NCBI RefSeq assembly: GCF_001426585.1
Contig: NZ_LMEI01000010.1
Coordinates: forward strand, 62,001 to 126,000
Reading direction: 5' to 3'
DNA length: 64,000 nt
Source of the DNA: Streptomyces sp. Root431
GTDB taxonomy: Bacteria; Actinomycetota; Actinomycetes; Streptomycetales; Streptomycetaceae
Part shown: positions 1 to 14,092 of the stretch, one piece after another
How positions within the stretch are numbered: the stretch's first letter is position 1
How the letters are laid out: every line of letters starts with the position of its first letter
Notes under the pieces: generated by a model
Database searches by the model: none
What the model saw: the letters and a program-made list of their open reading frames with translations, nothing else
Told to the model about the DNA's origin: nothing
Made by a program: the position numbers and the translations under genes

Positions 1-110
1 ACCCGCTCGCGGCTCAGGCGGCCGTAGCGCCCGTGGTCGCCGGCGCGCCTGCCGGGCGCGCGGCGCCCCGACGCGGGGGGCCCTGCCGCGGGGTCCTTCT
101 CGATCGCCAT
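1..110 (-). CDS. Partial CDS, probable TetR-type regulator N-terminus
   Basis: An ATG at 108-110 on the minus strand opens a frame that runs off the left edge, giving 36 residues. The start is rich in Arg, Pro and Gly and ends in G-R-Y-G-R-L-S-R-E-R-V. R-L-S-R-E-x-V is how the first helix of many actinobacterial TetR regulators begins; that is inference from about ten residues. The gene is divergent from the polysaccharide genes, so it could control them. A different DNA-binding protein cannot be excluded, because the helix-turn-helix itself lies outside the window. Confidence 0.45.
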   Translation of the reverse strand, partial: MAIEKDPAAGPPASGRRAPGRRAGDHGRYGRLSRER

Positions 111-119
111 GTGCCCGCC

Positions 120-147
120 TTGACCTTGGGACATCCAGGGTTAAAGT
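120..147 (+). promoter_or_regulatory. Putative sigma-70-type promoter of the polysaccharide operon
   Basis: TTGACC at 120-125 and TAAAGT at 142-147 are separated by 16 bp, close to the HrdB consensus. They sit in an A+T-rich island (about 131-170) inside otherwise very GC-rich DNA, between two divergent genes. The first plus-strand gene starts about 180 bp downstream, leaving a long 5' leader. Confidence 0.45.
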
Positions 148-325
148 GTACATATACGACGTAAACGTAGGGTGCTTCGCCACGGTGACAGGGTGGATCC
201 CTCGGACGCCACACCCAGCGCCCGACCGGTCACCACCACACCGGTCACCACACCGAGCACCACACTCCGGCGGACGGCCTCCGCAGCACGACGCGACCGT
301 GCGCCGATTCGATCCCGGAGCCATC

Positions 326-1213
326 ATGACCACGCACCCGACTCTGCCGCAGGGCATCGAGTCCCAGTCCGTCGACCACCCCCTCCGCCGCTCCACCGAC
401 CCGCCTCCGCACCCGCAGCGGCGCGCCGAGGACAAGACGCCGGTCCGGCCCGTGGTGAGCCTGGTGATCCCGGCCCTCAACGAGGCCCGCAACATCCCCT
501 GGGTCTTCGAACAGATCCCGGACTGCGTCGGAGAGGTCCTGCTGATCGACGGCGACTCCCACGACGCCACGGTCAGCGTGGCCACCCGGATCCTGCCCAC
601 CGTCCGCAGCCTGAAGCAGAGCGGAAAGGGCAAGGGGAACGCGCTGCGCACCGGCTTCCTCGCGGCGCGCGGCGACTACGTGGTGATGATGGACGCCGAC
701 GGCAGCATGTCCCCGGCGGAGATCCCGCACTTCGTCCACTTCCTGGAGAACGGCTACGACTTCGTCAAGGGCTCCCGCTTCGTCGAGGGCGGCGGCTCCC
801 TCGACATCACCCGCTTCCGCAAACTCGGCAACCACGCCCTGCTCGCGCTCGTGAACCGGCTCTACGACGCCACGCTGACCGACCTCTGCTACGGCTTCTG
901 CGCCTTCCGGCGCAGCTTCCTCGACCAGCTGGACCTGCACGCCACCGGCTTCGAGATCGAGGCCGAGATGATCGTGCACGCGCTGCGCTCCGGACTCCGG
1001 ATCGCCGAGGTCCCGAGTCTCGAACTGCCCCGCCGCAACGGGCAGTCCAACCTCCACGCCATCTCCGACGGACGCCGGGTACTGCGCACGCTCCTCTCGG
1101 AGCGTCCCGGCGTCCGGCCCGCGTCGGCCGGGCCCGCCACGGCCGAGCCCATGTCCGCCCAGCCGGTGTCGGCCCAGCCGCTGACCGCCTCGCGGGAGCG
1201 GAGCACGTCATGA
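326..1213 (+). CDS. Family 2 glycosyltransferase, DPM1/GtrB-like
   Basis: This 295-residue GT-A fold glycosyltransferase would transfer a sugar from a nucleotide donor, probably to a polyprenyl phosphate at the inner face of the membrane. The nucleotide-binding strand V-S-L-V-I-P-A-L-N-E is at about residues 44-53, and the metal-binding D-A-D is at 123-125, in M-M-D-A-D-G-S. No membrane helices follow the catalytic domain, so it is the soluble dolichyl-phosphate-mannose-synthase type. I chose ATG 326 because the longer frame to 146 reads as low-complexity His/Pro/Arg sequence. The C-terminal tail is a short Ala/Pro/Ser repeat. It is the first gene of a five-gene chain joined by 4-bp overlaps. 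Sugar and acceptor are not evident. Confidence 0.85.
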   Translation: MTTHPTLPQGIESQSVDHPLRRSTDPPPHPQRRAEDKTPVRPVVSLVIPALNEARNIPWVFEQIPDCVGEVLLIDGDSHDATVSVATRILPTVRSLKQSGKGKGNALRTGFLAARGDYVVMMDADGSMSPAEIPHFVHFLENGYDFVKGSRFVEGGGSLDITRFRKLGNHALLALVNRLYDATLTDLCYGFCAFRRSFLDQLDLHATGFEIEAEMIVHALRSGLRIAEVPSLELPRRNGQSNLHAISDGRRVLRTLLSERPGVRPASAGPATAEPMSAQPVSAQPLTASRERSTS

Positions 1214-2586
1214 CGCGCGGCAGCCGCGCCGCACCGAGGCCGTCGCCCCGCGGGGCGCTCCGCCCGGCGGCGCCGGCTTCACCGATGGCGGTCGTGGACA
1301 TCGACCTCGCCGAGCCCGGGGCGTTCCGCCGCCCCGGGGGCGGGGCGCGGACCAGGCCGTCCGGCCGCGCGCTCGGACTCGTACGGTTCCACGGCCGCCC
1401 GCTGGGGATGGCCGAGGCGTCCGGCGGCGAGCCCGAGGAGCTGTGGCGGGCCCTCGCGGCCGCGGCGCTGCGGGACTTCGCGGGCGCCGACGAGGACGTC
1501 GGGCTGGACGAGCCGCACCGGACGTTCGTCGAGGCGACCGCGGTCAGCGTGATCGTGGCCACGAGGAACCGCACCGGGATGCTGCGCGACTGCCTGGACT
1601 CGCTCCTTGAGCTCAAGTACCCGCGGTTCGAGGTGATCGTGGTGGACAACGCCCCGTCGGACACCTCCACGGAGGAACTGGTCCGGCGGGAGTACGGCGG
1701 CACGCGGGACGACGGCGGGCCCCTGCGGAACCACAGCGGCACCCCGGACGACGGCACCCGGGACGACGGCGGGCTCCTGCGGAACGACGGCCCAGCCGTC
1801 CGGTACCTGCGCGAGCCCGTGCCCGGTCTCGCCCGGGCCCACAACCGCGGGCTCGCCGCGGCCCACGGGGAGATCGCCGCCTTCACCGACGACGACACGC
1901 TCGTCGACCCGCTGTGGCTGACCGCGCTCGTCGCGCCCTTCCAGGCGGACCCCCGCACCGGCTGCGTCACCGGACTCATCGTCCCCGCCGAGCTGGAAAC
2001 CGAGGCGCAGGTCGCGCTGGAGCGGCACGGCGCCTTCGGCAAGGGGTACGCCGCGTGCACCTGGTCGCTGCGCGCCCCGTCCGCGGACCCGTTGTTCCCG
2101 TTCACCGCGGGCCGATTCGGCTCCGGCGCGAACATGGCCTTCCGTACGGAGCTGCTGCGCGAACTCGGCGGCTTCGACCCCGCCACCGGCGTCGGCACCC
2201 CCGCGCACGGCGGCGACGACCTGCTCTCCTTCTTCCGCGTCCTGGCCCACGACCGCTCGCTCGCCTACGAGCCCACCGCGATCGTCTGGCACCGGCACCG
2301 GCGCACCCCCGAGGCGCTCGAAGCGCAGGCGTTCGGCTACGGCGCCGGGTTCGGCGCCTATCTGGCCGGCGCGATCGTCCACGAACCCCGCATGCTGCCC
2401 GCACTGCTCCGCCGGCTGCCCGGCGGCGTGCGGTACGCGCTCGCCAGGAACCGCGAACGCGCCGGACCGGCCACCGGCCGCGGCGCCACGGCCTCCCGGC
2501 TCGCCCGACTGGAGCTGCGGGGCATGCTCTACGGGCCGTACGGCTACTGGCGCAGTCGGCACATCGAGCGACGGACAGGCCGATGA
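1210..2586 (+). CDS. Family 2 glycosyltransferase with N-terminal extension
   Basis: The 458-residue product starts at an ATG overlapping the previous stop (ATGA). About 110 residues of Pro/Arg/Gly-rich and helical sequence precede a GT-A domain beginning A-V-S-V-I-V-A-T-R-N-R. The metal-binding acidic cluster is T-D-D-D, just after G-E-I-A-A-F. G-A-N-M-A-F-R and G-G-D-D-L are family features of the acceptor side. Between donor-site strands there is an inserted near-duplicate segment (DNA 1695-1780) containing two copies of D-D-G-G-x-L-R-N. It probably acts at the cytoplasmic face in building the same glycan as its neighbours. Substrate unknown. Confidence 0.85.
   Translation: MTRGSRAAPRPSPRGALRPAAPASPMAVVDIDLAEPGAFRRPGGGARTRPSGRALGLVRFHGRPLGMAEASGGEPEELWRALAAAALRDFAGADEDVGLDEPHRTFVEATAVSVIVATRNRTGMLRDCLDSLLELKYPRFEVIVVDNAPSDTSTEELVRREYGGTRDDGGPLRNHSGTPDDGTRDDGGLLRNDGPAVRYLREPVPGLARAHNRGLAAAHGEIAAFTDDDTLVDPLWLTALVAPFQADPRTGCVTGLIVPAELETEAQVALERHGAFGKGYAACTWSLRAPSADPLFPFTAGRFGSGANMAFRTELLRELGGFDPATGVGTPAHGGDDLLSFFRVLAHDRSLAYEPTAIVWHRHRRTPEALEAQAFGYGAGFGAYLAGAIVHEPRMLPALLRRLPGGVRYALARNRERAGPATGRGATASRLARLELRGMLYGPYGYWRSRHIERRTGR
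1695..1780 (+). repeat. Direct repeat inside the second glycosyltransferase gene
   Basis: Two imperfect copies of a unit of roughly 50 bp, centred on the shared core acgacggcgggc and both ending in cctgcggaac, lie in tandem within the coding sequence. The result is an in-frame duplication of D-D-G-G-x-L-R-N, located in a loop between the substrate-binding strands of the GT-A fold. Confidence 0.6.
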
Positions 2587-4085
2587 CCGGGCCGCGGACC
2601 GCGGGGCACGCGCCCTTGGCGGCCGCTCCCACGGCCGCGGGGCACGCGCCCCTGGTGGCCCCTCCCACAGCCGCCCCCGCGGCCGCTCCCGCGGCCCCTC
2701 CCACAGCCGCTCCCACGGCCGCTCCCACAGACGCGGGGCACCCGCCCCCGGCGGCCGCCCCCACGGCCGCGCGGGACCGGCCCCCCGAGGCGAGGCGCTC
2801 GCTCGGCGCGGTGGTCAAGTCCGGCGCCACCGCGGTCTTCCCCCGTGACCCGCTCCTGCGCAACGGGCACCTCCTCGCGATCAGCTCCCTCGTCAGCGCC
2901 GCGCTGGGATCCGTCTTCTGGGTCCTGGCCACCCACTGGTACGACGACGAGGTGGTGGGCCTCAGCTACTCCGCGCTCTCCATGACCCTGCTCCTCGCCA
3001 GCATCGGCCAGCTCAACCTGTCCGACTTCCTCGTCCGGTTCGTGCCGTCCGCCGGCCACCACACCCGCCGGCTGATCCTCCTCTGCTACGGCGTGAGCGC
3101 CGTCATCAGCGCCCTGGTCGCCATGGGCTTCCTGCTGCTCGTCCCCGTGGTCGCCCCCGGCCTCGGCTTCCTGCTGACCCCGGTGACCGCCGCCTGCTTC
3201 GTCGCCGCCACCGCCGGATACGCCGTCTTCGTGATGCAGGACGGCGCGCTGACCGCGGTGCGACGGCCCGGCTGGGTGGTCGGCGAGAACGTGATCTTCG
3301 CGTGCGTCAAGATCGGGCTGCTCGGCGTGGGCGCGGCACTGGCGCTGTTCTCCGGCATCCTGCTCTCCTGGGTCGGGGCGCTCGCCGTCTCGCTCGTCAT
3401 CGCGAACTTCGTGCTGCTGCGCCGGGCCGTGCCCGAGCACGTACGGGTGTCGACGCAGGCGAAGCGGCCGGACCGGGCGCTGCGGTACGCGGCCGCCGAC
3501 TACTTCGGCTCGCTGTTCCGGATGGCGGCGTACACCGTGGTCCCGCTGATCGTCCTGGACAACCTGGGCGCCGAACAGAGCGCCTACTTCTCGCTCGCCT
3601 GGATCGTCGGCTACGTCCTCTACCTGGTCGCCCGCAACGTGGGCAGCTCCCTCGTGGTGGAGGCCGTGGGCAGCCCGGAGCGGCTGGTCGAGCACGCGGT
3701 GAGGATGCTGCGCCACACGGGTCTGCTGCTCGGCGCCGGCATCGTCCTCGTCGCCGTGCTCGCACCGCAGATCCTCTCCTTCTTCGGCCCCGAGTACGCC
3801 GAGCACGGCACCACCCTGCTGCGGCTCCTCGCCCTGTCCGCCCTGCCGAACATCGTCGTCAGCCTCGCCATCGACGTGTGGCGGGCGCGCCGCCGGCTGC
3901 GGTGGGCGGTCGGCGTGCAGATCGTGATGTGCGTGCTCGTCCTGGGGCTCACCAAGCTGCTGCTGCCGACGCTGGGGATCACCGGCGCGGGCGTCGCCTG
4001 GCTGGTGACCATGTGCCTGCTCGCCACGCCGCTGCTGATCTGGCGGTCGCGCTGGCTCACGACCGGATCCAGGAGGTCCTCGTGA
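2583..4085 (+). CDS. Polysaccharide flippase (Wzx/MATE-like)
   Basis: The protein has 500 residues. A disordered Ala/Pro/Thr tract of about 75 residues, built from repeats such as T-A-A-P and G-H-A-P-L, is followed by roughly twelve hydrophobic segments from about residue 100 to the end. Length and spacing fit the MVF/MOP exporter superfamily that flips lipid-linked glycan units across the membrane. It starts at the ATGA overlap with the upstream glycosyltransferase and is itself overlapped by the next one, so translation is probably coupled. The N-terminal repeat tract is unusual for the family and may have grown by slippage. It could also be an O-antigen-type exporter of another polyprenyl-linked cargo. 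Confidence 0.8.
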   Translation: MTGPRTAGHAPLAAAPTAAGHAPLVAPPTAAPAAAPAAPPTAAPTAAPTDAGHPPPAAAPTAARDRPPEARRSLGAVVKSGATAVFPRDPLLRNGHLLAISSLVSAALGSVFWVLATHWYDDEVVGLSYSALSMTLLLASIGQLNLSDFLVRFVPSAGHHTRRLILLCYGVSAVISALVAMGFLLLVPVVAPGLGFLLTPVTAACFVAATAGYAVFVMQDGALTAVRRPGWVVGENVIFACVKIGLLGVGAALALFSGILLSWVGALAVSLVIANFVLLRRAVPEHVRVSTQAKRPDRALRYAAADYFGSLFRMAAYTVVPLIVLDNLGAEQSAYFSLAWIVGYVLYLVARNVGSSLVVEAVGSPERLVEHAVRMLRHTGLLLGAGIVLVAVLAPQILSFFGPEYAEHGTTLLRLLALSALPNIVVSLAIDVWRARRRLRWAVGVQIVMCVLVLGLTKLLLPTLGITGAGVAWLVTMCLLATPLLIWRSRWLTTGSRRSS

Positions 4086-5134
4086 ACACCGACACGGACA
4101 CCGGCACCGGGACCGGCACCGGTTCCCTCCCCGTGCCGAGCCTGACGGTCGTCGTCTGCGCCTACACCCTCGACCGCTGGGACGACCTGCGGGCGGCGAT
4201 CGGGTCCCTGCGGGCCCAGCGGCACCCCGTCACGGAGACCGTGCTGGTCGTCGACCACTGCCCTGACCTGTACGAGCGCGCCTCCACAGCCTTCCCGGGT
4301 GTGCGGGTGCTCGCCAACGGCGAGCGCAAGGGACTGTCCGGGGCGCGCAACACCGGTGTGGCGGCCGCCCGTTGCGAGGTCGTGGCCTTCCTCGACGACG
4401 ACGCGGCCGCCGATCCGGACTGGTCCGCGCGGCTGCTCGCCCCCTACGCCGACGGCGCCGTCGTGGGCGTCGGCGGTCTGGTCCGGCCGTGGTGGGTCAC
4501 CCGGCGGCCAGTGTGGTTCCCGCGCGAGTTCGACTGGGTGATCGGCTGCTCGTACCACGGGCTTCCCGAACAGCCCTCCCCCGTACGGAACTTCATCGGC
4601 GCCAACATGTCCTTCCGCCGGTCCGAGCTGATCGCCGCCGGAGTGTTCCGTACGGACCTGGGGCGCGTGGGGACCCGCCCGCTCGGCTGCGAGGAGACCG
4701 AACTGTGCCTCCGCATCGCGGCCCGCCGCCCGGACGCCGTCCTGCTCCACGAACCCGCCGCCGCGGTCCGCCACCGCGTGCCCGCGGCACGCGCCACCTG
4801 GGCGTACTTCGTCGCCCGGTGCTACGCCGAGGGCCTGTCCAAGGCGCACGTCGCCCGGCTCGGCGGCAGTCGCGCGGCCCTGTCCAGCGAGCGCGCCTAT
4901 CTGCGGTCGACCGTCCCGCGGGCGTTCGTACGGGCGCTGCGGCCCGGCCGCCCCGGCGGGCCGCGTACGGCATCGGCGCTCGTGGGAGGGGTCGGGGTGA
5001 CCGTCGCGGGCTATGTCGTGGGCCGGGTCCGGCGCCCCGCGCCGGCCTCCGGCGCGGGCGGGCCCGCCGTCGCGGCACCGGCCGCCGTACCCGTCGCGGG
5101 ACCGGCCGGAGAGGCGGGCGGAGGCGGGCCATGA
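4082..5134 (+). CDS. Family 2 glycosyltransferase
   Basis: The 350-residue product starts at GTG 4082, overlapping the flippase stop (GTGA). A T-D-T-G-T-G repeat precedes the catalytic domain, which begins L-T-V-V-V-C-A-Y-T at about residue 20. The donor and metal site is F-L-D-D-D-A-A-A-D, and F-I-G-A-N-M-S-F-R-R marks the acceptor side, followed by G-C-E-E-T-E-L, the usual catalytic-base region. The C-terminus has a weakly hydrophobic Val/Gly segment and then an Ala/Pro/Gly tail, so peripheral membrane attachment is possible. It resembles the 1210-2586 enzyme more than the 326-1213 one. Acceptor and sugar are unknown. Confidence 0.85.
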   Translation: MNTDTDTGTGTGTGSLPVPSLTVVVCAYTLDRWDDLRAAIGSLRAQRHPVTETVLVVDHCPDLYERASTAFPGVRVLANGERKGLSGARNTGVAAARCEVVAFLDDDAAADPDWSARLLAPYADGAVVGVGGLVRPWWVTRRPVWFPREFDWVIGCSYHGLPEQPSPVRNFIGANMSFRRSELIAAGVFRTDLGRVGTRPLGCEETELCLRIAARRPDAVLLHEPAAAVRHRVPAARATWAYFVARCYAEGLSKAHVARLGGSRAALSSERAYLRSTVPRAFVRALRPGRPGGPRTASALVGGVGVTVAGYVVGRVRRPAPASGAGGPAVAAPAAVPVAGPAGEAGGGGP

Positions 5135-5949
5135 CCGCCGTACCCGTCTTCCTGTACCACTCGGTGTCGTCCGACCCGCCGTCCTGGATCGCGCCGTTCA
5201 CGGTCCGCCCGCGCGACTTCGCCGAGCAGCTGGACGTGATCGCCGACAGCGGCCTGCGGATCGTGCCGCTGGCCCGGCTCGTGGAGGCGCAGCGCGGCGG
5301 ACCGCCGCTCCCCGCCCGGTCCGCGGTCCTCACCTTCGACGACGGTTTCGCCGACTTCCACTCGACCGTGCTGCCCCTGCTCACGCGGCGGGGCATGCCC
5401 GCCACCCTGTACGTCACCACGGGCGCCCTGCGCGGCCGGGCCGGCGGGCCCGAGGACGACGTCTTCCCGCCGGAGTCGCGGATGCTGAGCTGGCGTCAGC
5501 TCGTCCCGCTGGAGCTGTACGGCGTCGAGATCGGCGGCCACACGAGGACGCATCCGCAGCTCGACACGCTGCCCGCGCCCCGGGCGTGGGACGAAGTGGC
5601 GGGATGCAGACGCGATTTGGAGGACTTCCTCGGTCATTCGGTCACGGCGTTCGCCTATCCCCACGGGTACTCCAGCCCCTCGGTGCGCGACCAGGTGCGC
5701 GCGGCGGGCTGGACCTCGGCCACGGCCGTGCGCGACGCGTTCAGCTCGGCGGACGACGATCCGCTGCGCATCGCCCGGCTGATGGTGCGCGCCGACACGG
5801 ACCGGGACCGGTTCCGGCAGTGGACCGCGGGGGCCGCGGCGCCGGTCGCGCCCTTCGCCGAAAGCCCCAGGACCAAGGGCTGGCGCGCCTACCGCCGGCT
5901 GAGGGCGCGGCTGAACGTGCCGTACAAGGCGGTGTCGGGGGGCCTGTAG
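5131..5949 (+). CDS. Polysaccharide deacetylase (CE4)
   Basis: The 272-residue NodB-fold enzyme would remove N- or O-acetyl groups from a polysaccharide using a metal ion. The catalytic and metal Asp pair T-F-D-D is at residues 68-71, the zinc motif H-T-R-T-H at 137-141, and F-A-Y-P-H-G at 174-179. There is no signal peptide, so it would act on a lipid-linked intermediate in the cytoplasm or be membrane-associated through partners. It is the last gene of the ATGA-coupled chain with three glycosyltransferases and a flippase. That suggests the glycan contains an amino sugar that is de-N-acetylated. Confidence 0.85.
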   Translation: MTAVPVFLYHSVSSDPPSWIAPFTVRPRDFAEQLDVIADSGLRIVPLARLVEAQRGGPPLPARSAVLTFDDGFADFHSTVLPLLTRRGMPATLYVTTGALRGRAGGPEDDVFPPESRMLSWRQLVPLELYGVEIGGHTRTHPQLDTLPAPRAWDEVAGCRRDLEDFLGHSVTAFAYPHGYSSPSVRDQVRAAGWTSATAVRDAFSSADDDPLRIARLMVRADTDRDRFRQWTAGAAAPVAPFAESPRTKGWRAYRRLRARLNVPYKAVSGGL

Positions 5950-5959
5950 CCCACCCGGC

Positions 5960-6835
5960 TCACGACGGCTGTTGCCACACCCGTACCCAGTCCACGCGCA
6001 TCCGGGCCGTGTCGACCGAGTCCGGCGGCGGCTCCGGCACCCCGACCGCGAGGTTGATCAGCACCTCCATGGGCACGTCCGGGATCCGTTCCGTGTCGGT
6101 CACCCGGAGGCGTTCGACGTTGTCCACGTACCAGACCAGCTTGTCGGGCTCCCACAGCAGACCGAAGACGTGGAACCCGTCGGGGAAGTCGACCGGGCCG
6201 TACGTGCCGCGCTGGCGTTCCTCGTCGCCGTCGGGCCCGCGCCAGTGCACGTACATGCTGACCTGCTCGGTGGTGTCCAGGAACTCCATGATGTCGATCT
6301 CCGGCGGCGTGAACTTCGAGGCGGGCATCATCCAGAACGCGGGGAACATGCCCTCCTCGGACGGGATCCTGATCGCCGCCTCGAAGTAGCCGTACGTGAA
6401 CGTGCGCCGGGGCTCGGCGTACCAGTCGTCCCGCCCGGTGGAGATCATTCCGGAGGTCCACGGGTAGGTCCGGTCGTCGCTGCCTTCCGTCTCGTGCCGC
6501 TCGGCGGTGAGGGTCAGCTCGCCGTCCCGGACGGAGACCTGGTCCGGCATGTACCACTGCAGTTCGTCGTTGCCGCTGTTGGTGCAGCCGCCCTTGTTCC
6601 AGTCGTAGCAGGTGGTCCACGTCCGGTCGTCGAGTTCCGTCCCGTCGAAGTTCTCGTCCAGGACGAGCCGCCACGCGCCGGACGGGGTCGGCATGACGGC
6701 GGTCGGCGGGGTGGCCCCGGCCGCCGCCGTGCCGTCGGCCTGACCGGACACGCAGGCGGTGGCCGTCAGCAGCAGGGCGGACGCCAGGGCCAGCGCCGCC
6801 CGGCGAAGGGGCCGGCGGGCCCCCGGCGCGTTCAC
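5960..6835 (-). CDS. GH16 family glycoside hydrolase, predicted lipoprotein
   Basis: The 291-residue product starts at a GTG that overlaps the upstream FAD gene (GTGA). The N-terminus is a lipoprotein signal: R-R, a hydrophobic stretch, then A-T-A-C with Cys28 as the lipidation site. The GH16 domain follows, beginning L-V-L-D-E-N-F-D. Its catalytic motif E-I-D-I-M-E is at residues 179-184, matching E-[ILV]-D-x-x-E with nucleophile and acid/base Glu. GH16 enzymes cut or transglycosylate beta-1,3/1,4-glucans and galactans. It is convergent with the polysaccharide operon, only 10 bp away, so it may trim, release or cross-link the polymer outside the cell. Confidence 0.85.
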   Translation of the reverse strand: MNAPGARRPLRRAALALASALLLTATACVSGQADGTAAAGATPPTAVMPTPSGAWRLVLDENFDGTELDDRTWTTCYDWNKGGCTNSGNDELQWYMPDQVSVRDGELTLTAERHETEGSDDRTYPWTSGMISTGRDDWYAEPRRTFTYGYFEAAIRIPSEEGMFPAFWMMPASKFTPPEIDIMEFLDTTEQVSMYVHWRGPDGDEERQRGTYGPVDFPDGFHVFGLLWEPDKLVWYVDNVERLRVTDTERIPDVPMEVLINLAVGVPEPPPDSVDTARMRVDWVRVWQQPS

Positions 6836-8091
6836 CGGTCCCCGCCCGCGACCGAGGTGGCGAGCCGGTGCGCGGCGAACGTCGTGCCGTGGACGAACCG
6901 CAGGACCGGGCCGAAGGTGGGGGCCGCGGCCAGGCCGGTGAAGTACAGGCCGGGGACCGAGGACTCGAACCCCGCCGACAGGACGGGCGCGCCGCCGGGC
7001 AGGGCGCGGACCGACGTCCGCAGGGACGGCTCCAGGACGGGGGTCCGACGCACGTCCACCCGGTAGCCCGTGGCCGCCAGGACGTGGTCGGTGTGCAGGA
7101 CGTCCTGCCGTCCCGCAGGGTCCGCCAGCTCCAGGCGTACGGCTCCGTCCGCGCCGTCCTGGTGGCGGGCCGAGACGAGCCGGCGCCCGCACAGCACCGG
7201 GAAGTGGCCGTTCACCCGCTCCCGCAGCCACCACGCGCCGGACGGCCCGAGCACGGTCCGCAGGACGTGCGTGCGCACCGGGACCGGCAGGTGGCGGTAG
7301 GCGGCGGGGCCGCGGCTGACCGCGAACAGCGACCAGCCGGGGCCGAGCGCCGAGCCGGGCTTGCGCAGCCGCTCGGGCCAGGGCCGGGCGGCCGGCCGGT
7401 CCGTCGGCGGCGGGTCGCCGAACAGCAGGGCCCCGGTCCTGGCGATCACGACGGGCCGGGCGCCCGCCTCGTGCAGCAGCGCGGCGCTCTCCAGGGCCGA
7501 CTGGCCCGCGCCGACGACGGCGACGCGCCGGCCGGCGAATCCGGCCAGGTCCGGGTGATCGCACGTGTGGGACGCGAGGCCCGCCGCGGCGAGCGGGTCG
7601 AGGCCGGCCGGCCGGTGGGCGTACGGCACGAGCCCGGTGGCCACGACCACGGCCCGTGCGGTGATCTCCTCGCCGGAGTCCAGCAGGACGCCGAAACCGC
7701 CGTCGGCGGTCCGTACCTCGCGCACGGCCGTACGCTCCACGCCGGGCACCAGGCGTTCCTGGAACCAGTGGCCGTACGCGATGAACTCGTCGACCGGGAT
7801 CGGATAGGTGTCGCCCACCGGCCCCCGGCCCCGCGCCGTGCGGAAGTCCGCGAACCGGTGCCCGGCCTCGGGCGCGGAGATCGAGGACGCGGCAGGGACC
7901 GATTTGAGGAACATGCCGTCGGGCATGTGGGTCCGCCAGGTCTCCATCGGCTCGCCGAACACGCGCACGGACGCGCCGGTCGCGCCCAGCCAGGCGGCGG
8001 TGGCCAGTCCGAACGGACCGGCGCCGACGACCACGACGGGAAGCCGGCGGCGGTCGGCGGTTCCGGAGTACGGGGGCGGATCCTGGGCCAT
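6832..8091 (-). CDS. FAD/NAD(P)-binding oxidoreductase
   Basis: The 419-residue protein has two Rossmann sites: V-V-V-G-A-G-P-F-G-L near the N-terminus for FAD, and V-A-V-V-G-A-G-Q-S-A at about residue 180 for NAD(P)H. A-T-G-Y-R in the C-terminal third is typical of flavin-containing and N-hydroxylating monooxygenases. The start is ATG 8091, because GGAGAGGAGG lies 7-15 bp upstream; a GTG six codons earlier is less likely. It overlaps the GH16 lipoprotein gene and follows two membrane-protein genes. Its substrate is not visible in the sequence. In this setting it could oxidise a glycan or lipid precursor, but that is only context. Confidence 0.75.
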   Translation of the reverse strand: MAQDPPPYSGTADRRRLPVVVVGAGPFGLATAAWLGATGASVRVFGEPMETWRTHMPDGMFLKSVPAASSISAPEAGHRFADFRTARGRGPVGDTYPIPVDEFIAYGHWFQERLVPGVERTAVREVRTADGGFGVLLDSGEEITARAVVVATGLVPYAHRPAGLDPLAAAGLASHTCDHPDLAGFAGRRVAVVGAGQSALESAALLHEAGARPVVIARTGALLFGDPPPTDRPAARPWPERLRKPGSALGPGWSLFAVSRGPAAYRHLPVPVRTHVLRTVLGPSGAWWLRERVNGHFPVLCGRRLVSARHQDGADGAVRLELADPAGRQDVLHTDHVLAATGYRVDVRRTPVLEPSLRTSVRALPGGAPVLSAGFESSVPGLYFTGLAAAPTFGPVLRFVHGTTFAAHRLATSVAGGDR

Positions 8092-8133
8092 CGCGCGCCT
8101 CCTCTCCACGCGGGCGTCTCCCGCAGGGGCTCT

Positions 8134-8511
8134 TCAACCAGCCTGCACCCCGGCGCGCCGGTTCCGCGCGCCGGGACGGAGGGACAGCAGGGCGAGGACG
8201 GAGGTCAGGGTGGCGAGGGCGACGAGGGACCTGGTGGCGGTGAAGACGCCGCCGAGGAAGAGCGCGACGGCCACGAGGGTCGCCAGGGCGAGCCCGAGCA
8301 CGAGGGTGACGAGCGCGCCCTCCAGGACCGCGGCCGGGTGCCCGCCCCGCGGCCGGCCGGCGGGCCGCAGCGCGAGCAGGGCCGCGAGCCCCGGGCAGAC
8401 GAGCAGGAACGCGGTGACGGCGGCCACCCGCACCGGGGCGGCGTCCGGCAGCGCCATGGAGAGGAGCGCGAGCCACCCTGAGGCGGCGAGTCCCAGGCGC
8501 AGGAAGATCAC
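8134..8511 (-). CDS. Small multi-spanning membrane protein
   Basis: The 125-residue protein starts at GTG 8511 behind a GAGGAGG ribosome site. Hydrophobic segments at about residues 4-22, 27-47, 62-85 and 88-110 predict four membrane helices. A short basic linker R-P-A-G-R-P-R-G lies between the second and third, and the tail is basic. I do not recognise the family. It sits 10 bp downstream of the large GT-C-like membrane protein, so the two may form a complex in polymer assembly or export. Confidence 0.65.
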   Translation of the reverse strand: MIFLRLGLAASGWLALLSMALPDAAPVRVAAVTAFLLVCPGLAALLALRPAGRPRGGHPAAVLEGALVTLVLGLALATLVAVALFLGGVFTATRSLVALATLTSVLALLSLRPGARNRRAGVQAG

Positions 8512-8521
8512 GGGTGCCTCC

Positions 8522-10417
8522 TCAGTCCGGTGGCGGTGTCACATAGCGGTAGACGATCGCGTCGCCGTTGTCGTAGACGCGCGTGAAGCCCGGGGCGTTG
8601 GACAGATCGGACTGGAGCCGCTCGGCGACGTCTGCGGGCAGGGCCCCGGTGACGTAGAGGTTCATGTCCTGGGCGCGGGTGAGCACGATGTACGCGGGCT
8701 TCTCCTCGGTGGCGCCGTAGATGAAGCCCTCCACCCCCTCCAGCGGGTCGATCACCATCTGCCGCAGGTCGTCCGGGTCCTGGTAGGCGAGCTGGATCCG
8801 GCGGTGTTTCTCGTAGTCCAGGTCGAGGTCGGGCACGTCGGCGGTGAGCGTGACGATCGTCGAGCCCGGTGGGGCGTGCTCGATCACGTAGCGGGCGGCG
8901 GCGACCTCCTTGAGCGTGTACTGGTTCAGGGCCTCCTTGCCGTAGTAGCCGAAGACCAGCGCGCCGAACATGGCGAGGAGGACGGGGTAGACGGCGAGCG
9001 TCGGCCAGACGCGCCGCCGGTCACCCGGCGGCAGCAGGAGCGCCGCCACCAGGAACGCGGCGGCGGGCAGCGCGAAGAGGTAGGCGCGGAAGAGCATCTC
9101 GCCGCCGTAGGCGTTGACGGCGAGCAGCGGCAGCGGGGCCGCGGCGAGCAGGGGCAGGCCGGTGCGCCGGGTCCACCGGCGGACCAGCATCCCGGCCAGG
9201 GCCAGGACGGCGACCGCCGCCGAGAGGCCGCGGTCGACCCAGGACAGCAGGATCTGCCCCGGGGCGGCGTCGCCCAGGGCGGCGAGCCCGGAGGAGACGT
9301 TCTGGTCGGGCTGGGTGAGGGACTGGATGAGGTTGGTGATGTTGACGGCGATGTACGACCGGGCCACGGTGGCGTCCCAGGCGGCGGTGAGGACGACCGC
9401 GGCGATCAGGACCGGCAGCGCGAGGCGTCGGCTGCGGCGGGGCAGGGACAGCATCGCCATGGCGCTGATCAGCATCAGCGGTGTCAGCGGGTGGGAGACC
9501 ACGATCGCGGCCACCATCACCACGACCGCCGCGAAGAGCCCCGGCGGCCAGCCGTCCCGGCGGCGCGGATCGGGGCGGGGGAGCGCCGACGACGGCAGCC
9601 GCCGGAACAGGAGGGCGACCACGGTCATGAAGAGCAGGAAGGCGAAGGACTGCGGCGCGAAGTAGTCCTGCCCCACCCAGGAGCAGCTGTAGAAGATCCA
9701 GACGGCGCCCCAGACGAGCCGCCGGTCGCGGGTCACGCTCCGGTAGATCAGGAGCAGCGGGGCGAGCAGCAGGGCGTTGGCGACCGGGGGCGTCCAGGAG
9801 GCGTACCCGACGGCCGAGTCCAGGCCGGTGGTCCGCAGGAACATCGCGTGGAGCTCGAAGAAGCCCGGCCAGTCGTTGTAGACGGAGAACTTGTCCGCGT
9901 CCGGCACCTCGCCGCCGTGCCGGATCACCGCGTCGATGACCGCCAGGTGTTTCCAGGCCCAGGAGTACCGCAGGGTCGGGTACAGGAGCGTGGGGGTGGC
10001 GTGGAGCAGGGCGATCAGCGTGAGCACGTAGCCGGTGAGCCAGGCGCTGTGGGTGCGGCGGTCGGTCAGGGCCAGGCAGAAGCCGAGCGTGAGCAGGCCG
10101 GCCGCGACCCAGAAGAGCGGGGGCAGCACCTGGAGCAGCCCGAGGTCGCGCATCTTGTCGAGCGGGACCGAGCGCAGCGACAGCAGCCAGAGGACGACCG
10201 AGAGCGGCAGGACCACGCGCGCCGCCCACACGCGGAGGGCGCCGGAGCGGGTGCGGGGAGCGGTACGGGTGTCGGTACGGGTGTCGGTACGGGTCCCGGT
10301 CCCGGTCCCGGTCCCGGCGGCGGGCTGTTCCGGGGCGGCGGTCGCGGCGCCGTCACCGGTGCAGGCGGCGCCGGGAGAGTCGTCCGAGGCGTGGGCCCGG
10401 CGGTCGTTCCCGCTCAC
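8522..10417 (-). CDS. Large integral membrane protein, GT-C-like
   Basis: This 631-residue protein starts at GTG 10417 with no strong ribosome site. A disordered N-terminus contains a T-x-T-x repeat (DNA about 10255-10320). About twelve hydrophobic segments span residues 70-490, and a soluble C-terminal domain of about 130 residues ends in I-V-Y-R-Y-V. The many helices, the acidic and Tyr-rich first extracellular loop, and the extracytoplasmic C-terminal domain fit GT-C glycosyltransferases, which use polyprenyl-phosphate sugars outside the membrane. No single diagnostic motif is clear, so a polymerase or ligase role for the neighbouring glycan is inference. It is divergent from the ATP-grasp gene. 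Confidence 0.65.
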   Translation of the reverse strand: MSGNDRRAHASDDSPGAACTGDGAATAAPEQPAAGTGTGTGTRTDTRTDTRTAPRTRSGALRVWAARVVLPLSVVLWLLSLRSVPLDKMRDLGLLQVLPPLFWVAAGLLTLGFCLALTDRRTHSAWLTGYVLTLIALLHATPTLLYPTLRYSWAWKHLAVIDAVIRHGGEVPDADKFSVYNDWPGFFELHAMFLRTTGLDSAVGYASWTPPVANALLLAPLLLIYRSVTRDRRLVWGAVWIFYSCSWVGQDYFAPQSFAFLLFMTVVALLFRRLPSSALPRPDPRRRDGWPPGLFAAVVVMVAAIVVSHPLTPLMLISAMAMLSLPRRSRRLALPVLIAAVVLTAAWDATVARSYIAVNITNLIQSLTQPDQNVSSGLAALGDAAPGQILLSWVDRGLSAAVAVLALAGMLVRRWTRRTGLPLLAAAPLPLLAVNAYGGEMLFRAYLFALPAAAFLVAALLLPPGDRRRVWPTLAVYPVLLAMFGALVFGYYGKEALNQYTLKEVAAARYVIEHAPPGSTIVTLTADVPDLDLDYEKHRRIQLAYQDPDDLRQMVIDPLEGVEGFIYGATEEKPAYIVLTRAQDMNLYVTGALPADVAERLQSDLSNAPGFTRVYDNGDAIVYRYVTPPPD

Positions 10418-10558
10418 CGGAACACGTCCATGACCTGTTCGGCGGGATCACGCTGTCCGGTAAGCCGCGAAAGGGACATTATGGTGTGATTCTAGAACGT
10501 CCCCTGCTGTGGGGCCTGATGGGATGTCGGGTCTCGGGAGGCCGTCGAAGGGAGAGCC

Positions 10559-11806
10559 GTGACGCCGCGTGCGCCGGACGACCCACTCCTCGATCCGACG
10601 GTGCCCGCGCTCCTCGCCAAGGTCGGCGGCTACCCCCAGCACCACGGCGGGCTCGGCGTGGTGCGGACCCTCGGCCGGGCCGGCGTCACCGTCCACGCCG
10701 TCGTCGAGGACCGCCTCACCCCCGTCGCGCTCTCCCGCCACCTGTCCCGCGCGTTCGTCCGGCCGACGACCGGCCTGGAGCGGCAGGACGTGCTCGTCGG
10801 GGTCCTGCTCGACATCGGCCGGTCCATCGGCGCTCCTTGCGTCCCCGTGCCCACCGACGACGAGGCCGCGATCCTCTTCGCCGAGCACGCCGAGGCCCTG
10901 TCCGAGTGCTTCCTGCTGCCCCGGGTGGACCCGGGCCTCCCGCGGCTCCTCGCCGGAAAGGCGACCCTGCACGCGCTCTGCGAGGAACTGGGTGTCGCCG
11001 CGCCGCGCACCCGGGTGCCCGGCAACCGCGACGAACTCGTGGACGCGGGCAGGGAGCTGGGCTTCCCCGTCGTCCTGAAGAACCGCGAAGCGTGGACCCG
11101 GCTGCGCGACCCGGCCGTGGGCGGCACCACCGCGGTCCGCGACGAGCGCGGCCTCCTGGACCGGTTCGCGCCCGGCGCCCTGCCCCCGCTCCTGGTGCAG
11201 GAGTACATCCCGAGGGAGTGGGCGGAGGACTGGATCACCCACCTGTACTGCGGAACCGGGGGCGAGCCCCGGGTCGCCTTCACCGGTCTGAAGCTGCGGT
11301 CCTGGCCGCCGTACGCCGGGGTGACGACACGGGCCGTGGCGCTCGCCAACCCCACCCTCGCGAAGCTGGCCGCGGACCTGTGCCGCCGGATCGGCTACAG
11401 CGGCGTCGCGGACCTCGACTGGCGCTACGACCGCCGCGACGAGCTCTACAAGCTGGTGGACTTCAACCCGCGGACCGGCGCCCAGTTCCGGCTGTTCGAG
11501 ACCATCGACGGCGTGGACGTCGTCCGGGCCATGCACCTCGACCTGACGGGCCGTGACGTGCCGCCGGGCCCGCAGGTCGACGGGCGGGTGTTCGTGGCGG
11601 GCCAGCTCGACCTGCCGTCGGTACTGGCCTGGCTGCGCGAGGAGCACCGGCTCCCGCCCGCCCTGCTGCCGGGACCGGACACCGAGCGCGCCTGGCTCAG
11701 CCGCGAGGACCCGCTGCCGGCCGCGGCCGAGGGGGTCCGGTTCCTCGGCGCCGTCGCCCGCCGGATCGGCCGGGAGGTGCGGGCGCGGGGCACGCGGAGC
11801 CCGTGA
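10559..11806 (+). CDS. ATP-grasp ligase-like protein
   Basis: The 415-residue protein starts at GTG 10559 behind GGGAG. The N-terminal half has K-V-G-G-Y-P-Q-H-H-G-G-L-G-V-V-R, resembling a pre-ATP-grasp nucleotide fold. The centre has F-P-V-V-L-K-N-R, the ATP-binding lysine strand, then L-L-V-Q-E-Y-I-P, and later D-L-D-W-R-Y-D and K-L-V-D-F-N-P-R, the metal-binding acidic and Asn residues of ATP-grasp enzymes. Such enzymes join a carboxylate to an amine or thiol through an acyl phosphate. It leads a three-gene set with a phosphotransferase and a FemAB-like acyltransferase, suggesting amino-acid or peptide decoration of the surface glycan. Substrates unknown. Confidence 0.75.
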   Translation: MTPRAPDDPLLDPTVPALLAKVGGYPQHHGGLGVVRTLGRAGVTVHAVVEDRLTPVALSRHLSRAFVRPTTGLERQDVLVGVLLDIGRSIGAPCVPVPTDDEAAILFAEHAEALSECFLLPRVDPGLPRLLAGKATLHALCEELGVAAPRTRVPGNRDELVDAGRELGFPVVLKNREAWTRLRDPAVGGTTAVRDERGLLDRFAPGALPPLLVQEYIPREWAEDWITHLYCGTGGEPRVAFTGLKLRSWPPYAGVTTRAVALANPTLAKLAADLCRRIGYSGVADLDWRYDRRDELYKLVDFNPRTGAQFRLFETIDGVDVVRAMHLDLTGRDVPPGPQVDGRVFVAGQLDLPSVLAWLREEHRLPPALLPGPDTERAWLSREDPLPAAAEGVRFLGAVARRIGREVRARGTRSP

Positions 11807-11866
11807 AGGCGCGAGGACCTCGCCGGGCGGAGCCCGTAAAGCCTCATGGAGCGGAGCCCGTAAAGG
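11794..11866 (+). repeat. Three spaced copies of a GCGGAGCCCGT unit
   Basis: The unit gcggagcccgtraa occurs at about 11794, 11826 and 11850, spaced about 32 and 24 bp. The first copy contains the stop codon of the ATP-grasp gene. The units could be decayed duplications of the gene's 3' end; no hairpin links them. Confidence 0.5.
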
Positions 11867-11889
11867 CCTTGTTAGAGTGAAATATCCGC

Positions 11890-11904
11890 ATTCATTCGAT
11901 GAAT
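11890..11904 (+). promoter_or_regulatory. Perfect ATTCAT-N3-ATGAAT palindrome before the phosphotransferase gene
   Basis: ATTCAT (11890-11895) and ATGAAT (11899-11904) form a perfect inverted repeat in a short A+T-rich stretch, 15 bp before the GTG start. A TTAGAGT element at 11872-11878 could be a -10 box. It looks like an operator, with no evident regulator. Confidence 0.4.
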
Positions 11905-11918
11905 GGCCGGGAGGATCC

Positions 11919-13007
11919 GTGGACACCGCGCTCCCCCGTGCCGTGCCGGGCGAGCGGCCCGGCCCCGCACGGTCGGGATGGACCGGTCTCCTTCCGCTCG
12001 ACCCGAGCCCGCTCCTGACCCGCCCGTCCGACCTCGCGCGGGCCCACCGCCTCGCCGGACTGCTGCGCGGCGGGAACGTCCGCTTCCGCGATCTGCACCG
12101 GCTGGAGCGGACCGTCTCCGACCTGCTGGTCTTCCGGCTCGAGGACCACGCCGCGGAGCCACTCGTGATCAAGCACCCCCGCAGCACCCGCGCGGCCGGA
12201 TCCCTCACCCACGGCTGCGCGGTCCTGCGCGAACTGGCCGGGGACGACCGGATCGGGGAGTGGCGACGGCTGCTGCCGTCGGCCGAGGAGCTGCGGTACG
12301 AGGGCCGGCTCCTGCTCGTCGCGGAGCGCTGCCTGCCGGGCGTCGAGGGAGACGTCCTGCTCCGGCGCGCACCCGACCGGACCTGGCCGCTCGCCGTCTC
12401 GGCACTCGACGCCGTCGCGGCCCTGCACCGGGCGACCGGCCGCCCCGAGCGGGCCGGGGGCCGGACCGACGACTGGGTCGACGCCCGCCTGGCGGTACTG
12501 GCCCAACAGGTCCCCTGGTGCGGCGGGGCCCGCGGCACGGCCGCCGTACGGGCCCTGCGGGAGCGCCTCGCCGGCGGCCTGGCCGGACGCACCCTGACCG
12601 TGGCCCGGACCCACGGCGACTACCACCCCGGGAACATCCTGGTGGACGAGGAGAGCGGAGCGCTGTCCGGGGTGATCGACTGGGCGGACTCGCGCCGCGA
12701 CGGGCCGTGCGCCGTCGACTCCTACCTCTTCGTCCTCACCCTGCGGCAGCAGCGCGAGCGGCGGGAGCTGGGGCAGATCGTGGCCGACGCCGTCCGCCGC
12801 GGCGGCCTGCTGCCCGAGGACCGCGCCCTGCTCGCCCACTCCGACGTCCCGCCCCCGGGCCGGGAGTCCGACGAGGCCCTGCTGCCGCTGCTCACCTGGC
12901 TGTGGCACGTCGCGGGGAACGCGGCCAAGTCCGCCCGCTACGGACGCAGCCGCCGCTGGGTCGCCGGAAACGTGGTGCCGGTCCTCACCGAGGTGGCGCG
13001 GCGGTGA
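11919..13007 (+). CDS. APH-type phosphotransferase family protein
   Basis: The 362-residue product has its start at GTG 11919 with GGGAGG 5-10 bp upstream; an in-frame GTG at 11877 is also possible. The kinase-like catalytic loop T-H-G-D-Y-H-P-G-N-I-L is followed by G-V-I-D-W-A-D, the metal-binding Asp. These are the hallmarks of the aminoglycoside/choline/homoserine phosphotransferase fold. Known members phosphorylate small hydroxyl compounds. Between the ATP-grasp and acyltransferase genes, and overlapping the latter by GTGA, its likeliest role is phosphorylating a sugar or amino-alcohol building block of the glycan. Antibiotic resistance is not indicated by the context. Confidence 0.75.
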   Translation: MDTALPRAVPGERPGPARSGWTGLLPLDPSPLLTRPSDLARAHRLAGLLRGGNVRFRDLHRLERTVSDLLVFRLEDHAAEPLVIKHPRSTRAAGSLTHGCAVLRELAGDDRIGEWRRLLPSAEELRYEGRLLLVAERCLPGVEGDVLLRRAPDRTWPLAVSALDAVAALHRATGRPERAGGRTDDWVDARLAVLAQQVPWCGGARGTAAVRALRERLAGGLAGRTLTVARTHGDYHPGNILVDEESGALSGVIDWADSRRDGPCAVDSYLFVLTLRQQRERRELGQIVADAVRRGGLLPEDRALLAHSDVPPPGRESDEALLPLLTWLWHVAGNAAKSARYGRSRRWVAGNVVPVLTEVARR

Positions 13008-14092
13008 GCACGGTCGAGGTCCTCGCGCAGGCCACCGCGGCGGGCCCGGTCCGGGTGACGTCCCCGGCACCGCGCGAGGTCTGGTGGCGGCTGGCCGAGG
13101 AGGACCGGGCCACGCTGGTCACCCAGACGCCGTACTGGCTCGACGCCCTCTGCGCGACGGCGCCGTTCGAGGACGCCAGCCGGCTGTACGTCTTCGCCGG
13201 CGGCCGACGGCTCGTCGTCCCCCTCGTCCGGCGGCGCGGCCTGCCCGCGCGCCTGACCGCCGAGGAGTCCTGGCCGTCCGGCTGGGGGATCGGCGGACCC
13301 CTGGCGGCCCCGGGCACGCCCGACGAGGAGGAGGCCCTGGTCGTCTTCCGCGACCTGGCCAGGCGCCCGGCGCTGCGGGTCGGCGTGCGGTTCGGGCCGG
13401 ACGCCGACCCGGTGTGGGCGGCCGCCGCACCCCCGGACTTCGCCGCCGAGACCATCACGACGTACGGACTGGACCTGAGCGGGGGCTTCGACACCGTCTG
13501 GGAGCGCCGCTTCCACGCCCGGGTCAGGCGCGACGTCCGCAAGAGCGAACGGTCGGCCGTCGAGGTGGAGGTCGACCGCGAGGGCCGCCTGGTGGACGAC
13601 TTCTACGGTCTGTACGAGACGTCCATGGTGCGCTGGGCCGGGCAGCAGCACGAGCCGAGGGCGCTCGCCCGGCTGCGGCAGTCCAGGGCGTTCCCGCAGC
13701 GGTACCTGGAGGCGGTCGCCGAGCGCTTCGGCACCTCGTGCGCCATCTACCTGGCCAGGGTCGGCGGGGAGCCGGCGGCCGGCGTGGTGGTGCTGTCGCA
13801 CGGGGACCGGGCCAAGTACTGGCGCGGCGCCATGGACCGCGACCTGGCCCATCCGGTGCGGGCGAACTTCCTGCTCCAGAAGCTCGCGATCGAGGACGCG
13901 TGTGCCGAGGGCCGGACGGCCTACGTCATGGGCGACTCCCGCCCGGGGTCCTCGCTCGCGTACTTCAAGGAGGGGTTCGGGTCCGAGGGGCACCCCACAC
14001 TCCGCTACCGCCGCGAACGCCTTCCGCTCACCGAGACGGACCGGCTCATGAGGTCCGCGGCCAAGCGGCTGCTGCGCTTCCGGGACGCCTGA
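13004..14092 (+). CDS. FemAB/BioF2-like GNAT acyltransferase
   Basis: The 362-residue protein starts at a GTG overlapping the phosphotransferase stop. The C-terminal GNAT domain has F-H-A-R-V-R-R-D-V-R-K-S, then G-G-E-P-A-A-G-V-V-V-L-S, the central strand of the fold. K-Y-W-R-G-A-M and Y-F-K-E-G-F-G-S-E are seen in the Acetyltransf_6 and peptidoglycan-interpeptide-transferase group. The N-terminal half is a second degenerate copy, as in FemAB. These enzymes add acetyl or aminoacyl groups to sugars or wall precursors. It ends the ATP-grasp / phosphotransferase / acyltransferase set, 61 bp before ubiX. The acyl donor is unknown. Confidence 0.75.
   Translation: MSTVEVLAQATAAGPVRVTSPAPREVWWRLAEEDRATLVTQTPYWLDALCATAPFEDASRLYVFAGGRRLVVPLVRRRGLPARLTAEESWPSGWGIGGPLAAPGTPDEEEALVVFRDLARRPALRVGVRFGPDADPVWAAAAPPDFAAETITTYGLDLSGGFDTVWERRFHARVRRDVRKSERSAVEVEVDREGRLVDDFYGLYETSMVRWAGQQHEPRALARLRQSRAFPQRYLEAVAERFGTSCAIYLARVGGEPAAGVVVLSHGDRAKYWRGAMDRDLAHPVRANFLLQKLAIEDACAEGRTAYVMGDSRPGSSLAYFKEGFGSEGHPTLRYRRERLPLTETDRLMRSAAKRLLRFRDA

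Follow-up and report, generated by a model that had tools for sequence, protein, structure and literature searches.

The stretch of DNA analysed here (the window) comprises 64,000 nucleotides of Streptomyces sp. Root431, i.e., positions 62001–126000 of contig NZ_LMEI01000010.1 (C10), from an assembly of 6.5 Mb that is 79% complete. At window positions 326–14092 it carries an island of twelve genes that lie on both strands and behave as one system. They encode three GT2 glycosyltransferases (GT2a, GT2b and GT2c), a putative flippase (FLP), a CE4 polysaccharide deacetylase (CE4), a GH16 putative lipoprotein (GH16), a flavoenzyme (FMO), a small membrane protein (MEM), a GT-C-fold glycosyltransferase (GTC), an ATP-grasp-like protein (ATPG), an APH-fold kinase (APH) and a FemX-fold aminoacyltransferase-like protein (FEM). 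On balance, the island probably produces a glycan of the cell surface along a lipid-linked route that depends on a flippase and includes de-N-acetylation, aminoacylation and flipping of the units, with the GT-C enzyme instead of a Wzy protein joining or transferring them outside. An initial annotation of this DNA had already taken the region for a surface-glycan cluster, a view that the analysis supports, and the island is rated a new variant among flippase-dependent clusters of this kind; a literature search, with most subscription papers outside its reach, gave no account of this gene set as a unit.

Recurrence and pairing of the island genes

Relatives of the island were collected by a scan anchored on GTC, from which the best 80 of 311 relatives were kept, and each gene was counted in the 65 loci of at least 18 kb, leaving out the 15 of the 80 that were shorter. 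Since the genomes are related, the loci are not independent samples (L138 and L139 are near copies) and the Fisher values are descriptive. GTC relatives are present in 77 of 150 genomes of the genus, its own included, and six others are close (48–63% identity). Their neighbours are the same genes in varying order and strand, and the set recurs in Streptomycetaceae. Among the 65 long loci GT2c was found in 63, CE4 in 59, GT2a in 57, FLP in 56, GT2b in 51, GH16 and MEM in 45 each, ATPG in 31, FMO in 30, and APH and FEM in 24 each. All twelve genes are present in eight of these loci and at least nine in 40, with GTC alone in one. The search of other genomes that the initial annotation had proposed thus found the set recurring together, and 20 random 20-kb stretches from ten genomes of the genus were empty of all twelve, both at the score used for the loci and at a looser one.

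A single strand carries GT2a, GT2b, FLP, APH, GT2c, GTC, CE4 and FEM, together with a weakly GH16-like gene, in Mycolicibacterium elephantis (L135) and Rhodococcus sp. CH91 (L142). Two loci of Chloroflexota (L150 and L152) show the row FEM, GH16, FLP, APH, GTC, and in a third (L153) the row is longer and includes GT2s and CE4. When FEM served as the anchor, with an alignment built from the GTC-anchored loci, the search found a one-strand row of nine genes (GT2a-GT2c-GT2b-CE4-FEM-GH16-FLP-APH-GTC) in another actinobacterial family (L224), where the APH match is weak (44 bits). Within the genus, FEM relatives occur in six of the 150 genomes, four of the six beside GTC, and one relative (L212) lies in a different glycan cluster, whose members include a PIG-L-like gene and a further GT-C-like gene, both labelled by eye. 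Across the phylum FEM was found in four of 396 genomes, two of them new, i.e., L224 with the full nine-gene row and L223. In some Streptomyces islands, a phosphoesterase-family protein recurs near FEM (L040:8295-9167, minus strand, and L054:11560-12360, plus strand).

The initial annotation had grouped ATPG, APH and FEM into a single decoration module, and this grouping did not hold, as the “module” is in fact two independent pairs, APH with FEM and ATPG with FMO. In the 65 long loci, APH and FEM are both present in 24, APH only in five, FEM only in none and neither in 36 at the loose score (20, 4, 4 and 37, respectively, at the strict score). ATPG and FMO are both present in 29, ATPG only in two, FMO only in one and neither in 33, and ATPG and FEM are independent of each other (Fisher p 0.30). 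A single ATP-grasp/APH/Fem triad was therefore ruled out by the pairing counts. ATPG is common on its own (91 of the 150 genus genomes), and in five such loci (L214–L218) an FMO relative adjoins it or lies one gene off, in several contexts outside the island.

Some of the genes are also fused, a “fusion” being one stop-free frame, as counted in 114 loci (108 without duplicates, there being six duplicate pairs). GT2c and GTC share a frame in 25 of the 114 loci (24 of the 108), FLP and APH in seven, and FLP and GTC in five, the last being type-B clusters (see below); a four-part frame FLP-APH-GT2c-GTC in L135 and L142 was counted under both GT2c-GTC and FLP-APH. The same rule yields MEM-GH16 (seven loci), FLP-GT2c (four) and a few single cases, with errors in draft sequences possible, and most weight is given to the fusions that recur across families. 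The kinase motif is kept in all four of the fused APH copies examined. Through these one-frame fusions the kinase is linked to the flippase, and the GT-C enzyme to both the GT2 and the flippase.

Structural models of the GT-C and FemX-type proteins

The model of GTC (mean predicted local distance difference test score, pLDDT, 91) has the GT-C fold and bears out the “GT-C-like” label of the initial annotation, with the oligosaccharyltransferases as its nearest structural matches. Foldseek gave 22 matches at E<=1e-3, all to GT-C enzymes; three of these are named only as translocon complexes and were taken to be their STT3 chain. The best structural match is the yeast oligosaccharyltransferase 8agc (Z 21.5 over 459 residues, root-mean-square deviation 5.0), followed by AglB (3waj, Z 20.8), AftA (8if8, 17.6), PglB (3rce, 16.9) and ArnT (5f15, 15.4), of which ArnT and AftA are GT-C enzymes that transfer single sugars. 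A sequence search of the PDB with GTC gave no meaningful match (best E 0.73). The WWD motif, the hallmark of the oligosaccharyltransferases (STT3, AglB and PglB), is absent, there being no WW in the window protein and none in the A2 consensus, and GTC was ruled out as an oligosaccharyltransferase proper for want of it. A Pfam search gave no match for FLP, MEM or GTC; the assignment of FLP rests on its relatives and on its hydrophobic sequence as read by eye, and a type-B homologue matches PelG weakly, at 24.2 bits vs. a cut-off of 29.

No Wzy_C match lies in the island, and the sole one in the genome, as sought with one Pfam model in the 79% complete assembly, is at C7:61282 in another cluster; Wzy proteins are diverse. 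With this sole Wzy_C match lying outside the island, GTC is, on its modelled fold, a candidate polymerase in place of Wzy, and the frame shared by FLP and GTC in type B suggests that the GT-C enzyme takes the flipped unit.

FEM, which the initial annotation had called “FemAB-like”, models as a FemX-type transferase with the tandem-GNAT fold (mean pLDDT 90) and the catalytic Phe-Lys pair. Its structural matches include 6snr (Z 27.0, 306 residues, root-mean-square deviation 3.6) and 1ne9 (Z 26.2), and the Z values run from 26–27 for FemX/FemA through about 25 for Sbb17/Sba18 and 17–19 for MprF-type proteins to 13–16 for acetyl-CoA GNATs. The sequence profile of FEM matches Sba18 (E 2e-5), a tRNA-dependent synthase solved with streptothrisamine, an amino-sugar antibiotic precursor. 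In the available part of a review (PMC12945691), Phe328-Lys329 of DhpH-C and Lys305 of FemX are described as functional residues and Orf11 as a Gly-tRNA-dependent Fem-like enzyme acting on streptothrisamine. Across the FEM sequences compared, Lys322 is present in 23/23 and Phe321 in 21/23, and the equivalence of F321-K322 to Lys305/Lys329 rests on the position of the motif and the Sba18 alignment rather than on a residue-level alignment of the structures. PF13480, which FEM matches, carries an acetyltransferase name. From its fold and profile, FEM appears to be a FemX-type, aminoacyltransferase-like protein, and its use of tRNA is predicted. Aminoacyl groups on a de-N-acetylated glycan, as suggested in the initial annotation, would be the best-supported part of the chemistry, with the FemX-like model and the profile match to a streptothrisamine-bound synthase both pointing to them.

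Proposed pathway, its alternatives and known systems

The recurrence of the set, the modelled folds, the motifs, the one-frame fusions and the pairings were computed; we infer each of the reactions, along with their substrates and their order and the identity of the sugar and of the amino acid. In the proposed pathway, the AglJ-like GT2a would load the first sugar onto polyprenyl phosphate, and GT2b and GT2c would extend the lipid-linked glycan. A cytoplasmic CE4 would strip an N-acetyl group, and FEM would put an amino acid from an aminoacyl-tRNA onto the amine thus exposed, the APH kinase being tied to this step; since neither CE4 nor FEM shows a signal peptide (by eye), both would be expected to work inside the cell, with the lipid-linked unit as their target. 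The flippase would turn the unit outward, GTC would polymerise it or attach it to an acceptor, and the GH16 lipoprotein would trim or release the polymer. The ATPG/FMO pair could be a separate optional decoration, by which a further group may be added or oxidised. Of all the steps, that of the kinase is the least clear; the single PDB match of APH (E 0.004) did not narrow down its substrate. A phosphate beside an amino group would give a zwitterionic polymer.

Several points weigh against this pathway. The WWD motif is missing from GTC, which could transfer sugars one at a time, and GTC stands alone in the long locus L145. FEM is found in just 24 of the 65 long loci, which would make aminoacylation optional; one FEM relative (44%) lies in a natural-product-like cluster with a nonribosomal peptide synthetase-like gene (L213, C3:188000-207999, labels by eye), and L223, a contig of 8.6 kb, carries FEM without other island genes. 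A FemX fold and a lysine are insufficient to prove the use of tRNA, and the location of CE4 was judged by eye. Deletion of wps-3, a cluster of Actinoplanes missouriensis compared below, gave no visible phenotype (PMC13390465, available in part).

A GT-A/flippase/GT-C system that adds sugars outside is already known from the same partly available source, and the island could likewise be an ordinary flippase-type exopolysaccharide cluster, in which GTC only adds a side-chain sugar from a polyprenyl-P-sugar made by GT2a and FEM is an acyl-CoA N-acyltransferase. This explanation, possible if doubtful, would suit the Z values of 15–18 for GTC vs. ArnT and AftA and the name of PF13480. However, FLP and GTC form one frame in five type-B clusters, the FEM model is far nearer to FemX than to the CoA GNATs, and the Wzy_C match is missing from the island and present elsewhere in the genome, a point limited by the 79% completeness of the assembly and the diversity of Wzy. 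It is quite improbable that the island glycosylates surface proteins or wall polymers, with GTC as an oligosaccharyltransferase that transfers the completed glycan en bloc onto an acceptor: STT3, AglB and PglB are among the top structural matches of GTC, and AglJ and AglG are similar to GT2a and GT2c, but the WWD motif is wanting, no candidate acceptor was seen within the island, and the GH16 lipoprotein fits a polysaccharide.

Next to no credence is due to the idea that two unrelated gene sets happen to adjoin on opposite strands. The four-gene core (GT2a, FLP, GT2c and CE4) does occur without ATPG, APH and FEM in 7 of 51 loci at the strict score and in 12 of 57 at the loose score, but at least one of the three accompanies it in 44 of the 51 (45 of the 57), GH16 in 42 of the 51 (46 of the 57) and GTC, being the anchor, in all. 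With the genes sharing one strand in L135, L142 and L224, the idea is already contradicted; independence of the two strands was ruled out by the co-occurrence counts and the one-strand clusters, and the claim of the initial annotation that the strands belong together stood.

Among known systems, the Caulobacter holdfast pathway differs from the island in that, to our knowledge, it has no GT-C polymerase, kinase-flippase fusion, ATP-grasp or flavoenzyme, and the island CE4 scores 22.6 bits vs. the 400 of the HfsH model. The likeness lies in HfsH (CE4) and HfsK (a FemX-like tandem GNAT) being in one polysaccharide pathway, where HfsK was suggested to acylate the amines freed by HfsH; CE4 and FEM are proposed to act inside, as with these two (PMC5362036, available in part). 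In Hirschia baltica, deletion of hfsK left biofilm unaffected, as far as the accessible part of PMC8449245 reports. The fold and profile of FEM match Sba18/Sbb17 of the BD-12/streptothricin enzymes (Orf11; Sba18, Sbb17), and the BD-12 pathway includes a FAD enzyme, Orf1 (PMC10156733, available in part), but the target there is a small antibiotic, and Orf1 need not be related to the island flavoenzyme. A Fem-type and a FAD enzyme acting on one amino sugar in BD-12 would be, by analogy, only a lead for the role of ATPG/FMO.

With Haloferax Agl N-glycosylation, the island shares a GT-C enzyme resembling the oligosaccharyltransferases and two glycosyltransferases whose nearest curated models are AglJ and AglG. 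In this genome GT2a scores 142 bits in the AglJ model (TIGR04182, cut-off 325) and GT2c 204 bits in the AglG model (NF041394, cut-off 440); one paralogue pair reaches 144 and 224 bits, respectively, and the next GT2 proteins 71 and 47 bits. In contrast to the Agl system, GT2a and GT2c fall below these cut-offs, GTC is without WWD, and the island adds CE4, FEM, APH and GH16. Of two surface-polysaccharide clusters of Actinoplanes missouriensis, wps-1 encodes GT2, Wzx-like, GH26 and kinase-like proteins, and wps-3 a polysaccharide deacetylase, a BioF2-like acetyltransferase and a FAD monooxygenase. Unlike the island, both have O-antigen-ligase-like (Wzy) and Wzz proteins, with no ATP-grasp or GT-C protein named in the available part of the source, and wps-1 carries sulfotransferases; its deletion distorts the sporangia (PMC13390465). 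The initial annotation had likened the island to exosortase-associated clusters of other phyla, and had noted that an exosortase is missing. The absence was confirmed, with no match to PF09721 in the genome (assembly 79% complete), and the likeness proved weak: XrtA/exosortase exopolysaccharide clusters also contain a FemAB-like protein (TIGR03019 by name) and a deacetylase (PMC1569441, available in part), whereas FEM reaches 39.4 bits vs. the TIGR03019 cut-off of 260.35.

Layout, genomic site and sister clusters

Table 1. Features of the island and of its upstream region, with positions in the window.
Feature	Position	Strand	Remarks
TetR-family regulator, 5' part	1..134	-	full gene at L009:17373-18134 (-), with its start called at window 134; later Met possible
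Promoter-like site TTGACC-16-TAAAGT	120-147	+	1 found vs. 0.1 expected
Conserved AAGTGTACATATACGACGTAAA element, candidate TetR operator	144-165	+	adjoins promoter-like site, between TetR gene and GT2a
GT2a, GT2 glycosyltransferase	326..1213	+	closest to the curated model of archaeal AglJ (142 bits, under the cut-off of 325)
GT2b, GT2 glycosyltransferase	1210..2586	+	nearest curated model MftF, below cut-off
FLP, putative MOP-type flippase	2583..4085	+	repetitive N-terminus rich in Ala/Pro; in some relatives a fusion with APH or GT-C
GT2c, GT2 glycosyltransferase	4082..5134	+	closest to the curated model of archaeal AglG (204 bits, under the cut-off of 440)
CE4 polysaccharide deacetylase	5131..5949	+	no signal peptide seen by eye; PF01522 76.6 bits
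GH16 putative lipoprotein, endo-beta-1,3-glucanase-like	5960..6835	-	closest solved chain 2vy0
FMO, FAD/NAD(P)H flavoenzyme, monooxygenase type	6832..8109	-	Pyr_redox_2, 60 bits; partner of ATP-grasp gene
MEM, 125-aa membrane protein	8134..8511	-	with GT-C in 45/65 long loci
GTC, GT-C-fold glycosyltransferase resembling oligosaccharyltransferases; proposed polymerase	8522..10417	-	model, structural matches
ATPG, ATP-grasp-like protein	10559..11806	+	weak matches
APH-fold kinase	about 11877..13007	+	start codon uncertain
FEM, FemX-fold aminoacyltransferase-like protein	13004..14092	+	F321-K322 conserved

Ten of the twelve genes had been named in the initial annotation, and all ten were found at the coordinates it gave; it had missed the flavoenzyme, the 125-residue membrane protein and the divergent TetR gene. 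The chain of overlapping stop and start codons that it described is real, with ATGA at 1210, 2583 and 5131 and GTGA at 4082 on the plus strand, and GTGA overlaps are also found at 13004 (APH/FEM) and, on the minus strand, at 6835-6832 (FMO/GH16). The metal motifs of CE4 deacetylases are TFDD and HxxxH, and the island CE4 has TFDDG at 68 and HTRTH at 137; the other catalytic motifs found are EIDIME in GH16, HGDYHPGN in APH, and GAGPFG and GAGQSA in the flavoenzyme. A firm ATP-grasp identity for ATPG was sought, but the matches are weak (22.6 bits for CPSase_L_D2 and E 0.002 for pyruvate carboxylase). Repeats at 2599-2766 encode the Ala/Pro-rich N-terminus of the flippase and those at 1694-1791 an RDDGG-like insert of GT2b, both being probable low-complexity expansions. 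The TetR gene is divergent from GT2a, and a related TetR is present in 20 of the 65 long loci. The promoter-like site and the AAGTGTACATATACGACGTAAA element (120..165) overlap the called TetR start, and the element is partly conserved, its 12-mers being present in 6–7 of the 23 stretches upstream of TetR genes that were compared, that of the window among them.

Upstream of the island lie ubiD- and ubiA-like genes (L009:14970-17326 region) and downstream of it a ubiX-like gene, neighbours that presumably have a role in menaquinone synthesis. Thirty ubiA neighbourhoods of the genus were kept, and the 29 other than its own were compared: in 26 of the 29, ubiX follows within about 1.5 kb of ubiA with no island gene, and three end before ubiX. 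The closest two (ubiA 98% and 96% identical) have a gap of <50 bases between ubiA and ubiX, i.e., an empty site. As ubiA and ubiX are adjacent and island-free in close relatives, the island was probably inserted in this lineage. The same placement between ubiA and ubiX is seen in five relatives of the island (L076, L080, L081, L096 and L131) and one ubi flank in two more (L074 and L099); in the DNA examined of the remaining loci, neither ubi gene was matched.

Two kinds of sister clusters in the genus share genes with the island. Those of type A have GT2b, CE4, GTC, MEM, a flippase, an Acetyltransf_6 GNAT, a GH26-like enzyme and a DegT-type protein, and those of type B have GT2a, GT2c, CE4, the FLP-GTC frame, a GH39-like enzyme and, in some, a GNAT. 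The genome of Root431 itself contains a type-A cluster with a GH26-like and a GNAT gene (L058, C10:377000-396999) and part of a type-B cluster with AglJ/AglG-like GT2s and CE4 (L059, C11:423000-442999). The same core with a swapped glycosidase, i.e., GH16 in the island and a GH26-like or GH39-like enzyme in the sisters, suggests one machine retuned for several polymers.

We know of no product for many Streptomyces surface-glycan clusters. The pathway proposed here makes testable claims, namely that a GT-C enzyme does the work of Wzy, that the flippase is hard-wired to the kinase and the polymerase in some lineages, and that aminoacyl groups are transferred in a tRNA-dependent manner to an amino sugar of a polysaccharide. 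A wider proposal, which for now is unlikely, is that of a distinct glycan-assembly machine in Actinomycetota and Chloroflexota, in which AglJ/AglG-like loading on polyprenyl monophosphate would be combined with de-N-acetylation, phosphorylation by a kinase that is sometimes part of the flippase, aminoacylation from tRNA, and a handover of the unit by the flippase to a polymerase of oligosaccharyltransferase fold that is sometimes in the same polypeptide, the product being a zwitterionic aminoacylated polysaccharide. If true, such a machine would link translation, through charged tRNA, to the synthesis of a surface polymer.

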